Below are positions 14,096-16,476 of a stretch of 64,000 nt of DNA, one piece after another. How positions within the stretch are numbered: position 1 is the first letter of the stretch; the number at the start of each line of letters is the position of its first letter. Below the pieces are notes generated by a model. That model saw only the letters and a list, made by a program, of their open reading frames with translations. It was not told the DNA's origin and ran no database searches. Made by a program: the position numbers and the translations under genes. Origin of the DNA: Flavobacterium sp. GT3R68 (lineage in GTDB: Bacteria; Bacteroidota; Bacteroidia; Flavobacteriales; Flavobacteriaceae); contig NZ_VJZK01000002.1 in NCBI RefSeq assembly GCF_007109225.1, forward strand, positions 186,001-250,000. Direction: 5' to 3'.

Positions 14096-15043
14096 TTATT
14101 CCAATGTTGACAAATATCTCTCCGCATCCAAAGCTGCCATACAACCTGTACCGGCTGCAGTAACGGCCTGACGGTATACATGATCCGCTGCGTCGCCCGC
14201 TACAAAAACTCCGGGAACATTGGTCTGTGCCGTTCCGGGTTTGTTGATGATATAACCGGTTTCATCAAGGGTGATATAATCCTTAAATATATCGGTGTTT
14301 GGTTTATGACCAATAGCCACGAAGAAACCTGTCGCGGGGATATCAATAATTTCCCCGGTGGTTTTGTTTTTCGCCTGAACACTGGTTACGACCTGCCCGT
14401 CTCCTAAAACTTCAACGGTATCATGATTCATTAAAATAGTAATATTCTCTGTTTTGCGAACGCGGTCTTCCATAATTTTGGAAGCCCTGAAATGCTCGCT
14501 TCTAACCAACATCGTCACCTTAGAACACATTTTTGATAAATAATGTGCTTCCTCACAAGCGGAATCCCCTGCTCCTACTATGACCACTTCCTGATTTCTG
14601 TAGAAAAACCCGTCGCAGATAGCACAAGCCGAAACACCTCCACCAGTTAATAAGTAATGTTGCTCTGACTGTAAGCCTAAATATTTAGCCGCAGCACCGG
14701 TCGAAATAATTACTGTTTCACAGTGTAGTTCTTTAACGTCATTGATCCATACTTTAAGGACTTCTCCGCTGAAATCAACTTTGGTTGCCCAGCCTTCACG
14801 TACCGCAGTTCCAAAACGCTCAGCCTGTCCTTGCAGCTGCACCATCATTTCAGGACCTGTTACCCCGTCAGGATATCCCGGGAAATTCTCTACTTCATTT
14901 GTAGTGGTCAATTGTCCACCAGGTTGTATTCCTTGGTATAAAACAGGATGCATATTAGCTCTGGCAGCATAAATAGCGGCTGTATAACCTGCTGGCCCCG
15001 AACCTATAATAAGACATTTTATTTTTTCGATTGTATCTGACAT
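14096..15043 (-). CDS. trxB: Thioredoxin-disulfide reductase
   Basis: 315-residue flavoprotein that reduces thioredoxin with NADPH. FAD-binding GSGPAGYTAAIYAARA lies near residues 15-30, the redox-active pair is C140-A-I-C143, the NADPH-binding site reads VVIGAGDSACEEA (with GAGDSA), and the C-terminal FAD motif ends in FVAGDAAD. Length and order of domains are those of low-Mr bacterial TrxB. Single gene with its own promoter. Confidence 0.97.
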   Translation of the reverse strand: MSDTIEKIKCLIIGSGPAGYTAAIYAARANMHPVLYQGIQPGGQLTTTNEVENFPGYPDGVTGPEMMVQLQGQAERFGTAVREGWATKVDFSGEVLKVWINDVKELHCETVIISTGAAAKYLGLQSEQHYLLTGGGVSACAICDGFFYRNQEVVIVGAGDSACEEAHYLSKMCSKVTMLVRSEHFRASKIMEDRVRKTENITILMNHDTVEVLGDGQVVTSVQAKNKTTGEIIDIPATGFFVAIGHKPNTDIFKDYITLDETGYIINKPGTAQTNVPGVFVAGDAADHVYRQAVTAAGTGCMAALDAERYLSTLE

Positions 15044-15154: not shown

Positions 15155-15184
15155 TTGTTTAAACAAAAAAGTTTGCTATATTTG
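15155..15184 (+). promoter_or_regulatory. Promoter upstream of the tRNA-Pro locus
   Basis: TTG (15155-15157), 19 bases, TATATTTG (15177-15184). Transcription should begin just before the degenerate tRNA copy at 15195. It is the only convincing promoter I see upstream of the intact tRNA at 15514. Confidence 0.7.
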
Positions 15185-15194
15185 CACCGCGTTA

Positions 15195-15265
15195 CGGGGT
15201 GTAGCGTAGCTCGGTTATCGCGTCCCGCGGGGCGGGAAGACGCAGATAGAAAACCTCTAAGAAAT
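15195..15265 (+). pseudogene. Degenerate tRNA-Pro copy
   Basis: The first 28 bases (15195-15222) are identical to the first 28 bases of the intact tRNA-Pro at 15514, starting exactly at mature position 1. After that the copy diverges. It keeps a 5-bp anticodon-arm-like hairpin (TCCCG / CGGGA, 15223-15237) with only a 5-base loop, and a length-matched T-arm (GCAGA, 7 bases, CCTCT) that cannot pair properly. The 3' acceptor strand and CCA are lost. It cannot give a functional tRNA. Confidence 0.75.
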
Positions 15266-15268
15266 ATT

Positions 15269-15509
15269 ATGTACTTAGTATATTTTATATAGTGAAAGTT
15301 CTTTAAAATATTACACAGGTCAAACTGATAATCTGGAAAGTAGATTATATAGACATAATTCTGGTTTAAGTATTTCTACTAAATCAGGGAAACCTTGGAA
15401 ATTGATTTATCACAACCAATTTTCAACACGCTCAGAAGCAATGCTTATCGAGCTAAAAATTAAAAAAAGAGGAGCCAAAAGATATCTTCAAGATATTGGT
15501 TTCTTTTAA
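15269..15509 (+). pseudogene. GIY-YIG nuclease gene with a 5' frameshift
   Basis: From the codons for YILYSES to the TAA at 15507-15509, one frame encodes a nearly complete single-domain GIY-YIG protein: YIL followed ten residues later by YYTG, then LESRLYRHNSG with the conserved Arg, KPWKLIYHNQF, and SEAMLIELKIKKRG with the catalytic Glu. The only ATG (15269, MYL) is in a different frame; the span is 80 codons plus one base, so a single-base insertion near 15276-15280 separates start and domain. Single-domain GIY-YIG proteins of about 80-100 residues are common in flavobacteria. It sits between the degenerate and intact tRNA-Pro copies. Confidence 0.75.
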
Positions 15510-15513
15510 CATT

Positions 15514-15591
15514 CGGGGTGTAGCGTAGCTCGGTTATCGCGCCTGCTTTGGGAGCAGGAGGCCGCAGGTTCGAATCCTGCCACCCCGACCA
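15514..15591 (+). tRNA. tRNA-Pro (anticodon TGG)
   Basis: A 78-base cloverleaf. Acceptor CGGGGTG pairs with CACCCCG, the anticodon stem is CCTGC / GCAGG around loop TTTGGGA (anticodon TGG), the T-arm is GCAGG-TTCGAAT-CCTGC, the discriminator is A, and CCA is encoded. The D-stem is short (GCG/CGC). A terminator follows 20 bases downstream. Confidence 0.97.
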
Positions 15592-15611
15592 ATTTATTGT
15601 CAATTCATACT

Positions 15612-15642
15612 AAAGCCTGTAAATATTTTTACAGGCTTTTTT
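15612..15642 (+). terminator. Terminator after tRNA-Pro
   Basis: Stem AAAGCCTGTAAA / TTTACAGGCTTT with a four-base loop and a following T-run. Confidence 0.9.
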
Positions 15643-15696
15643 ATTTCTTATTCTCAAACATTTCCAAAAAACAAGCCCTCAGTTTCTATTAATTAC

Positions 15697-15732: not shown

Positions 15733-16341
15733 ATGCTGATTATTGGTATTGCCGGAGGAACAGGAAGTGGAAAAACAACTGTAGTTCACCAGATTATGAA
15801 CGAACTGCCACAGACGGAAGTGGGGATTATTTCGCAGGACTCTTATTATAAGGAAACAAATAATTTAAGTTTTGACGAGCGGGCGCTGATTAATTTCGAC
15901 CATCCGCGTGCCATTGATTTTGAATTATTGGTCAGCCACCTTAAAGAATTAAAAGCCGGAAATAATATCAACCAACCGGTGTATTCCTTCGTAACACACA
16001 ACCGTACAGACGATACCATCTTTACACATCCGAGAAAAGTGATGATTGTAGAGGGAATCCTAATCCTGGCAAATCCGGAATTAAGAGAAATGTTTGACGT
16101 CAAAATTTACGTTCACGCTGATTCCGACGAAAGACTGATCCGTCGTCTCAAACGTGATATTGCCGAGCGTGGCCGCGATATGAACGAGGTCCTGAACCGT
16201 TATCAGAACACCCTGAAACCGATGCACGAACAGTTTATCGAACCGACCAAAGCCTTTGCCGATATCATTATTCCAAACGACAAATACAACACTGTGGCAA
16301 TCGATGTGGTCCGCGCCGTTATTAATCAACGAATTTCATAA
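15733..16341 (+). CDS. udk: Uridine kinase
   Basis: 202 residues. Phosphorylates uridine and cytidine in pyrimidine salvage. The P-loop is GGTGSGKTT at residues 8-16. Further family marks are ISQDSYYKE, the FDHPRAIDF motif that binds nucleoside, VMIVEGILIL, and the lid segment DSDERLIRRLKRDIAERGRD. Length is normal. It is followed by a copy of the dispersed hairpin element and then by the DivIC-like gene on the same strand. Confidence 0.96.
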   Translation: MLIIGIAGGTGSGKTTVVHQIMNELPQTEVGIISQDSYYKETNNLSFDERALINFDHPRAIDFELLVSHLKELKAGNNINQPVYSFVTHNRTDDTIFTHPRKVMIVEGILILANPELREMFDVKIYVHADSDERLIRRLKRDIAERGRDMNEVLNRYQNTLKPMHEQFIEPTKAFADIIIPNDKYNTVAIDVVRAVINQRIS

Positions 16342-16370: not shown

Positions 16371-16459
16371 GGAGCCATTTCCTGCTGTCCGCTAAATCTT
16401 TTTGTTTTTAAAGAAAAAACAAAAAGGCAATTGCGAGAGCAATTCGACCATCAGGGCTA
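16371..16459 (+). repeat. Dispersed structured element, copy A
   Basis: Begins GGAGCCATTTCCTGCTG and ends CATCAGGGCTA. A long A/T hairpin (TTTTTGTTTTT / AAAAAACAAAAA) fills the variable centre, and a second hairpin, AATTGC-GAGA-GCAATT with a GNRA-type loop, is unique to this copy. The outer pairing CCTG / CAGG is intact. It starts 30 bases after the udk stop and ends 17 bases before the DivIC-like start codon, so it lies in that gene's leader if the two are co-transcribed. Other copies: 23753 (inverted), 53681, 63807. Confidence 0.8.
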
Positions 16460-16476
16460 TAATATCCGGTAATACC

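Follow-up and report, generated by a model that had tools for sequence, protein, structure and literature searches.

Recurrent association of a small GIY-YIG nuclease gene with intact and partial tRNA copies in Bacteroidota: a putative homing-like element

Between a trxB-like and a udk-like gene of Flavobacterium sp. GT3R68, a tRNA-Pro gene is split by a 319-bp insert that carries a small GIY-YIG gene. The locus (L058) lies in the window, i.e., the whole 64,000-nucleotide stretch of DNA that was analyzed, and comprises the following features:

14096..15043, minus strand: trxB-like gene, left neighbor (open reading frame; by tblastn, adjoins tRNA-Pro in 34 genomes); from its family we take it to be trxB (thioredoxin reductase)
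15177..15186, plus strand: TATATTTGCA, probable promoter element of the original tRNA gene, inferred from identical letters 5' of tRNA-Pro in the empty relatives L059 and L073; presumably of the Bacteroidota type
15195..15222, plus strand: tRNA-Pro positions 1-28 (5' part), standing where the ancestral gene stood (exact repeat; distance from trxB as at empty sites)
15223..15237, plus strand: 15-nt hairpin TCCCGCGGGGCGGGA replacing the anticodon arm of the partial copy
15238..15268, plus strand: what is left of the partial tRNA copy after erosion, together with the nuclease gene's leader (compare L217, L221 and L222)
15269..15509, plus strand: single-domain GIY-YIG nuclease gene, frameshifted near its 5' end
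15514..15591, plus strand: rebuilt intact tRNA-Pro(TGG) (ARAGORN; Rfam RF00005)
15607..15644, plus strand: inverted repeat with a T run, inferred to be the tRNA terminator
15733..16341, plus strand: udk-like gene, right neighbor (open reading frame; udk stands beside trxB and tRNA-Pro in L072, L073, L075 and L119); presumably udk (uridine kinase)

A first-pass annotation of this DNA had reported a 28-base exact repeat starting at position 1 of tRNA-Pro, and the repeat was confirmed at 15195-15222 and 15514-15541, a spacing of 319. The intact second tRNA-Pro that it had described was recovered as well, being the sole tRNA called by ARAGORN in the window and matching Rfam RF00005 with 69.2 bits; four bases separate it from the end of the nuclease gene. 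The annotation had further described the first copy as perfect in its 5' part and ruined in its 3' part. The 3' part is indeed diverged, but not by random decay: positions 1-28 are kept, the hairpin then takes the place of the anticodon arm, and the T arm beyond it is eroded. No terminator was seen between the two tRNA-Pro copies of the window, and a single transcript spanning partial copy, nuclease and tRNA-Pro is plausible, in the absence of transcript data. On the minus strand at 16374-16462 (2361-2449 of L058), a Flavo-1 RNA match of 34.7 bits stayed below the gathering threshold of 42.

The gene between the copies had been called a GIY-YIG remnant, which is accurate insofar as it holds a PF01541 domain in a broken frame: the frame opened by the ATG at 15269 stops at 15290-15292, and the conserved frame ends with the TAA at 15507-15509. 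The part after the break matched PF01541 at 7e-13, the locus read with one in-frame TAG gave 54 bits for the GIY-YIG domain, and the window nuclease (49-54 bits) exceeded the curated PF01541 cut-off of 22.6 bits. However, since comparison with seven relatives gave a dN of 0.06-0.21 against a dS of 0.48-1.26, the nuclease is otherwise well preserved despite this one early break, and the window copy is a recently disabled member of its class of elements. Among 16 diverse members of the nuclease alignment, all of 80-95 aa, PF01541 was matched by every one (E up to 0.001), the only other Pfam match was T5orf172 in five, and the invariant columns included Y5, Y16, G18, R26, H30, E62 and K66, which we take to be the catalytic residues. 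Median dN/dS was 0.07-0.18 in six hand-picked groups (57 pairs, only those with dS of 0.1-2 being used), with 0.49 as the highest single pair, and therefore the protein appears to be functionally maintained where it is intact. By profile, the nearest solved structures were UPF0213 and SLX1 GIY-YIG proteins (1zg2, 1ywl and 7cq2; E 2.8e-13, 2.9e-10 and 1.5e-5); the SLX1 entry, which ranks after the UPF0213 proteins, is named a structure-specific endonuclease subunit.

In 34 sampled genomes trxB adjoins tRNA-Pro, and a GIY-YIG gene is present at six of these sites (the window's genome, G000, together with G007, G024, G027, G031 and G036). No nuclease was found at the other 28 of the 34 trxB-linked sites, two of the 34 stretches having ended at contig ends; empty sites in relatives, which the first-pass annotation had proposed to look for, thus exist. 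Among nuclease-free relatives with tRNA-Pro on the window's strand, a single intact tRNA-Pro starts 149-175 nt from trxB in 17 of 19, the remaining two being G006, with a nuclease-free partial copy before the intact tRNA, and G050, with its tRNA at 823 nt. Since the partial copy of the window lies 152 nt from trxB, it is the original 5' half, the intact gene having been completed 319 bp downstream. At the same site in a Flavobacterium MAG (L151, the same place as L216), a 5' half is followed by the hairpin TCTCGCTCTGCGAGA, an open nuclease frame and an intact tRNA-Pro, so that intact versions of the nuclease, which the annotation had also proposed to look for, exist. The spacing of the empty sites and this sibling support the first of the annotation's two readings, that a nuclease cassette entered the tRNA gene with a replacement 5' part and left the tRNA working.

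The other tRNA-Pro gene, inside a Ser-Pro-Arg tRNA cluster, can be occupied too: L222 (G352) carries a window-type element there, and no nuclease was found near the second tRNA-Pro located in that genome (L339). G000, G353 and G354 carry the element at trxB and lack it in the cluster tRNA-Pro gene. G027 has two tandem intact tRNA-Pro genes beside a GIY-YIG start. As for orientation, tRNA-Pro is on the opposite strand relative to trxB at 10 of the 33 trxB sites having an intact tRNA; in L072 (1501-1576) compared with L073 (1501-1576), the tRNA alone looks inverted, since both neighbors, trxB and udk, are unchanged. Hairpin-bearing 5' halves of tRNA-Pro and tRNA-Arg also precede intact tRNAs without any nuclease, at 1384-1740 of L111 (G005:C9) and in L081 (G006:C12), two of them in tandem with a spacing of 80 nt, and resemble non-autonomous or decayed units.

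The layout recurs across Bacteroidota as an intact tRNA, a GIY-YIG gene of ~80 aa and a partial copy of that tRNA in which a hairpin replaces an arm. Its occurrence at other tRNAs, a further check named by the annotation, was found for 14 amino-acid specificities, the isotypes adjoining the nuclease being Pro, Val, Ala, Asp, Asn, Met, Gly, Arg, Ser, Phe, Lys, Leu, His and Thr (the last three once each). The window's genome itself holds a second case, in which tRNA-Met is combined with an 84-aa nuclease and a hairpin-bearing 3' copy, and a third at tRNA-Leu, which has the same layout with the terminator duplicated too. Both the hairpin and this breadth had been missed by the annotation.

When 60 relatives were surveyed, 53 matches at 1e-6 or better were obtained, in 26 of the 60 genomes, those in the window's own genome being included among the listed matches and L002 being added to the 53. 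A profile search of 296 genomes of the phylum gave a match at 1e-8 or better in 187, from which 70 loci were retrieved, 30 by score and 40 picked down the list, and a scan of named genomes gave 76 loci, including Flavobacterium psychrotolerans, F. beibuense, F. caseinilyticum, Lacibacter, Maribacter and Melioribacter. Loci of the same genus were identical in sequence to named Flavobacterium records, which identifies the phylum as Bacteroidota. Merging of duplicates reduced 192 retrieved loci to 184 distinct ones; the own-genome matches L005-L010, with long or weak GIY-YIG domains, were excluded from the counts. An intact tRNA on the same strand lay within 300 nt of the nuclease at 149 of the 184 loci and a tRNA fragment only at another 25 (score threshold of 17 set by eye, L214 added by eye), while an antisense tRNA beside the nuclease was found at none of the 184. 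Since the surveys used tRNA-linked queries, which favor linked matches, and best-scoring matches, these proportions are valid for this nuclease family and not for all GIY-YIG genes. By the criteria used, no tRNA piece, intact or fragmentary, was found at 10 of the 184 loci; a nuclease without tRNA fragments, which the annotation had named as a refuting case, therefore does occur there, though not at the other 174. In one of the 10 (L281), a tRNA lies farther off, about 350 nt upstream. Seven come from the survey of relatives, and of these, six either are flanked by repeated motifs of their own or encode a different type of protein (by eye) and the seventh is inside a long open frame.

At least 27 of the 184 loci contain 2-7 nuclease copies or pieces. 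Five similar nuclease copies form an array in L050 (G022:C1) and seven in L214 (G282:C1), accompanied by partial tRNA-Pro and (by eye) tRNA-Phe copies. Judged by eye, the nuclease/tRNA-Pro arrays of L143 (about 900-945; G007:C24) and L042 (G005:C20) abut an apparent island end that carries a tRNA-Pro 3' end. Other small GIY-YIG genes, in L002 (G000:C41:90874-91095), L051, L054 and L026, lie among repeated motifs such as GTCATTGCGAG..GAACGACGAAGCAATCT and not at tRNA genes (by eye); the protein of L002 is of the type YITN..TTLYVGVTSNL, and these genes are possibly a sister system.

Two forms of the layout were distinguished among the 149 loci with an adjacent intact tRNA. In form D (117 loci), the tRNA is followed by the nuclease and then by a 3' part of the same tRNA; where inspected, a terminator follows the tRNA, and the nuclease match begins a median of 51 nt after it (set not de-duplicated). 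In form U (32 loci, including the window), a 5' part precedes the nuclease and the intact tRNA comes last, a median of 8 nt from the nuclease match. In our reading, both result from a single kind of event, in which the element inserts at an arm and itself supplies the half that completes one of the junctions. Since the window's nearest neighbor on the nuclease tree, G036, is of form D, with extra partial copies, the two forms interchange among close relatives.

A partial copy scoring above all 50 shuffles was present at 135 of the 144 loci tested, nine being without one and five short-flank loci having been excluded. A new hairpin, defined as one of 6 bp or more with no counterpart in the intact tRNA, occurred in 116 of the 135 partial copies and was lacking in 19; before de-duplication, the count was 119 of 138 copies, compared to 210 of 2760 copies after shuffling and 55 of 737 windows taken from other parts of these loci (about 8% in controls). 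The shuffles, for hairpins and partial copies alike, preserve single-base composition only. In most Pro, Val and Ala copies, similarity to the tRNA stops at about position 26-28 and resumes at 44-48, with the hairpin in the gap; it replaces the T arm in Phe, Leu and five of seven Asp copies and the D arm in form-U Ser and Arg copies. The commonest stems among 133 hairpins were TCCCGA (34), TCCCGC (20), TGGCGC (14), TTCCGA (9) and TCACGC (9). A tally of their pair types is not an independent test of covariation, since the hairpins were found by perfect pairing.

The palindrome TCCCGA..TCGGGA occurs at 17 sites elsewhere in G000, while a scrambled palindrome occurs 0-4 times per genome. At the 15 of these 17 sites that were viewed, T-rich runs follow and, in most, A runs also precede, as in intrinsic terminators. 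The motif alone is therefore no proof of a special signal, and membership of the hairpin in a dispersed, REP-like family of mobile palindromes was dropped, for G000 only. In relatives the palindrome reaches 106 sites per genome (G015, G004, G006), many of those in G006 being TCCCGATAGCTATCGGGA. Hairpin-bearing copies can mislead tRNA annotation: ARAGORN labels two altered tRNA-Val copies of G038 (L020 and L040) tRNA-SeC(TCA), probably falsely.

On a tree of 148 nucleases, tRNA isotype changed 31 times, compared to 79.4 in shuffles, none of 200 shuffles being as low. The tree rests on 80 columns with 70 of 145 inner branches unresolved, and rows shorter than 60 aa, with more than two stops, identical to another or of unclear isotype were omitted. 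Nuclease clades thus mostly follow tRNA isotype, the Arg-linked nucleases clustering poorly (four changes in five rows), and such clustering is partly expected from linkage alone. When one Pro-type query or alignment was run against 50,697 phage records, 72,556 plasmid records and viral contigs, it retrieved no close relative. The weak matches comprised 11 phage records (32-36% identity), one plasmid record (36.5%) and three loci on two viral contigs (34-39%); a phage or plasmid vehicle was set aside on this ground, and the vehicle by which the element spreads is unknown.

We consider it probable, though not secure, that the locus represents a minimal, one-gene selfish element that invades tRNA genes and rebuilds them in a homing-like manner; cleavage, copying, mobility and the role of the hairpin are all inferred. 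The element would insert at one arm of a tRNA gene, in the window the anticodon arm, leaving one half of the host gene as a stump that ends in a small hairpin, while the other half would be completed by a matching half-tRNA borne by the element, so that the cell keeps a working tRNA. The probable target of the single-domain nuclease is a tRNA gene of matching isotype that has not yet been invaded, either as such or folded into a hairpin or branched structure; hairpin or branched tRNA-gene DNA is a reasonable substrate since the nearest solved relatives are UPF0213 and then SLX1. Recombinational repair through the shared half-tRNA sequences could then copy the element in, as in homing, and the same repeats would let units multiply into tandem arrays. 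The hairpin would mark where the host half meets the element, and it probably serves for recognition or protection. Supporting this interpretation are the observed recurrence of the layout, same-strand linkage, hairpin swap, isotype clades and low dN/dS, the presence of the element at six of 34 trxB sites and in two tRNA-Pro genes, the arrays and the intact sibling L151. Counted against it are the small size of a lone 80-aa catalytic domain for a sequence-specific homing enzyme; the risk that a nuclease cutting intact tRNA genes should pose to the rebuilt tRNA in cis and to the genome's second tRNA-Pro; the use of the stem TCCCGA as a terminator stem in the window's genome; the lack of a close relative in the phage and plasmid records searched; the share of isotype clustering that linkage alone would produce, with the poor clustering of Arg; the bias of tRNA-linked queries toward linked matches; and the exceptions, i.e., the nine loci without a partial copy, the 19 copies without a new hairpin and the 10 loci without a tRNA piece. 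A more extensive claim, that a mobile element of this kind acts phylum-wide, its 80-aa structure-selective nuclease and hairpin seam splitting tRNA genes of the 14 specificities at a chosen arm and rebuilding them, with the hairpin-for-arm swap as a cis signal or immunity mark, is offered only tentatively and with some doubt.

Other explanations must account for the same observations. The second reading of the first-pass annotation, a tandem tRNA duplication that later decayed, here taken together with an unrelated intervening nuclease gene, can draw on the tandem intact pair of G027 and on the nuclease-free tandem partial copies in G005. However, it leaves the recurrent replacement of an arm by a hairpin (116 of 135 copies) unexplained, as well as a nuclease on the tRNA strand at all 149 loci with an adjacent intact tRNA, and we regard it as very improbable. 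Alternatively, the insert could be mobilized in trans by a tyrosine recombinase or be carried by tRNA-attachment islands, the GIY-YIG gene being cargo. A duplicated tRNA half with a rebuilt gene is what attachment sites show, and two arrays abut an apparent island end at tRNA-Pro (by eye; integrase was not sought there), but the insert of the window is 319 bp with the nuclease only, form U duplicates the 5' half, and a hairpin seam would not be expected. The loci were located by way of the nuclease, so any that had lost such cargo would have been overlooked, and partial copies without a nuclease do occur; on balance, this explanation is quite unlikely.

The gene might instead be domesticated, i.e., linked to tRNAs, inherited vertically and retained for a cellular function such as repair or tRNA-gene dosage, rather than selfish. 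Purifying selection and a profile match in 187 of the 296 genomes of the phylum are compatible with such a role, whereas patchiness at a given site (six of 34), the many isotypes, the arrays, the broken copies and the occupation of two different tRNA-Pro genes are not readily so, making it improbable. It is likewise unlikely that the system is a toxin and antidote acting at the RNA level, in which the nuclease would cut its cognate tRNA or the gene for it, the partial copy with its uncuttable hairpin would be a transcribed decoy, and loss of the pair would be punished. This would account for the swap of one arm within a tRNA half that is otherwise near identical, for clades that follow isotype and for a tRNA-like copy at 135 of 144 tested loci. 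But since many partial copies are only halves, a whole-tRNA decoy is rated low: neither the T arm nor the 3' acceptor strand is present in the form-U Pro loci that we inspected, and ahead of the hairpin many form-D Pro copies showed no similarity to the tRNA. In addition, GIY-YIG enzymes are known as DNA nucleases, and the nearest structures are UPF0213 and SLX1.

If the favored, homing-like interpretation holds, a single very small nuclease gene, which in numerous genomes of a major bacterial phylum appears able to invade many kinds of tRNA genes and leave them functional, would by our estimate be among the smallest autonomous selfish elements and would offer a natural means of placing DNA in a tRNA gene while restoring its function. 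Large elements that bring their own integrase are known to land in tRNA genes. Like those integrative elements, the present one duplicates part of a tRNA, leaves the gene intact and may form tandem arrays; unlike them, it duplicates the 5' half in form U and has a hairpin seam, and no integrase was found in the 319-bp insert of the window, which has no open reading frame large enough. Group I intron homing in tRNA genes (I-TevI type) similarly places a nuclease gene near the anticodon with function preserved, but here the tRNA is rebuilt in DNA and not by splicing, the mature tRNA being contiguous; an intron was rejected, as Rfam gave no intron family match at E up to 0.1 in L058, L093, L151, L214 and L281. 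REP/RAYT systems share the solitary enzyme gene next to small hairpins, but the enzyme here is GIY-YIG, and the dispersed sites viewed in G000 (15 of 17) look like terminators and not like a mobile population. SLX1, whose structure is among the closest, acts with a partner on branched DNA; no paper linking UPF0213/YhbQ and GIY-YIG with tRNA was found in the openly licensed literature.

Within the titles and abstract openings of that literature, no report was found of GIY-YIG genes inserted in bacterial chromosomal tRNA genes, nor did the same partial material mention a one-domain nuclease combined with a rebuilt half-tRNA and a hairpin-for-arm seam. The accessible portion of a paper on tRNA gene fragments contains no mention of 'Bacteroid' or 'endonuclease' (PMC9897764). 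Known already are tRNA-targeting integrative elements and SegB, the closest comparison. SegB has a separate DNA-binding region beyond its catalytic domain, and no such region was detected by Pfam in the 16 nuclease members of 80-95 aa. SegB of T-even phages is a free-standing GIY-YIG homing endonuclease that is reported to cut within tRNA genes at the motif RAWTSGAAC, to be associated with tRNAs of many isotypes, and to drive tandem amplification of the tRNA/segB unit by recombination (PMC13096335). By our own inference, the reverse complement of this motif is similar to the conserved T loop. The authors of that study leave open by what means SegB keeps from destroying the genome that carries it (PMC13096335), and the present element bears on this question of how a tRNA-cutting nuclease spares its own genome; that the hairpin has a role in such sparing is a guess. 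The likeness thus lies in a GIY-YIG nuclease tied to tRNA genes of many isotypes (here beside an intact tRNA at 149 of 184 loci) and in tandem units (PMC13096335). The differences are that SegB is phage-borne, whereas the present element is chromosomal and has one ~80-aa catalytic domain, and that here a half-tRNA is rebuilt, the partial copy bears a hairpin instead of one arm, and the nuclease clades group mostly by isotype.
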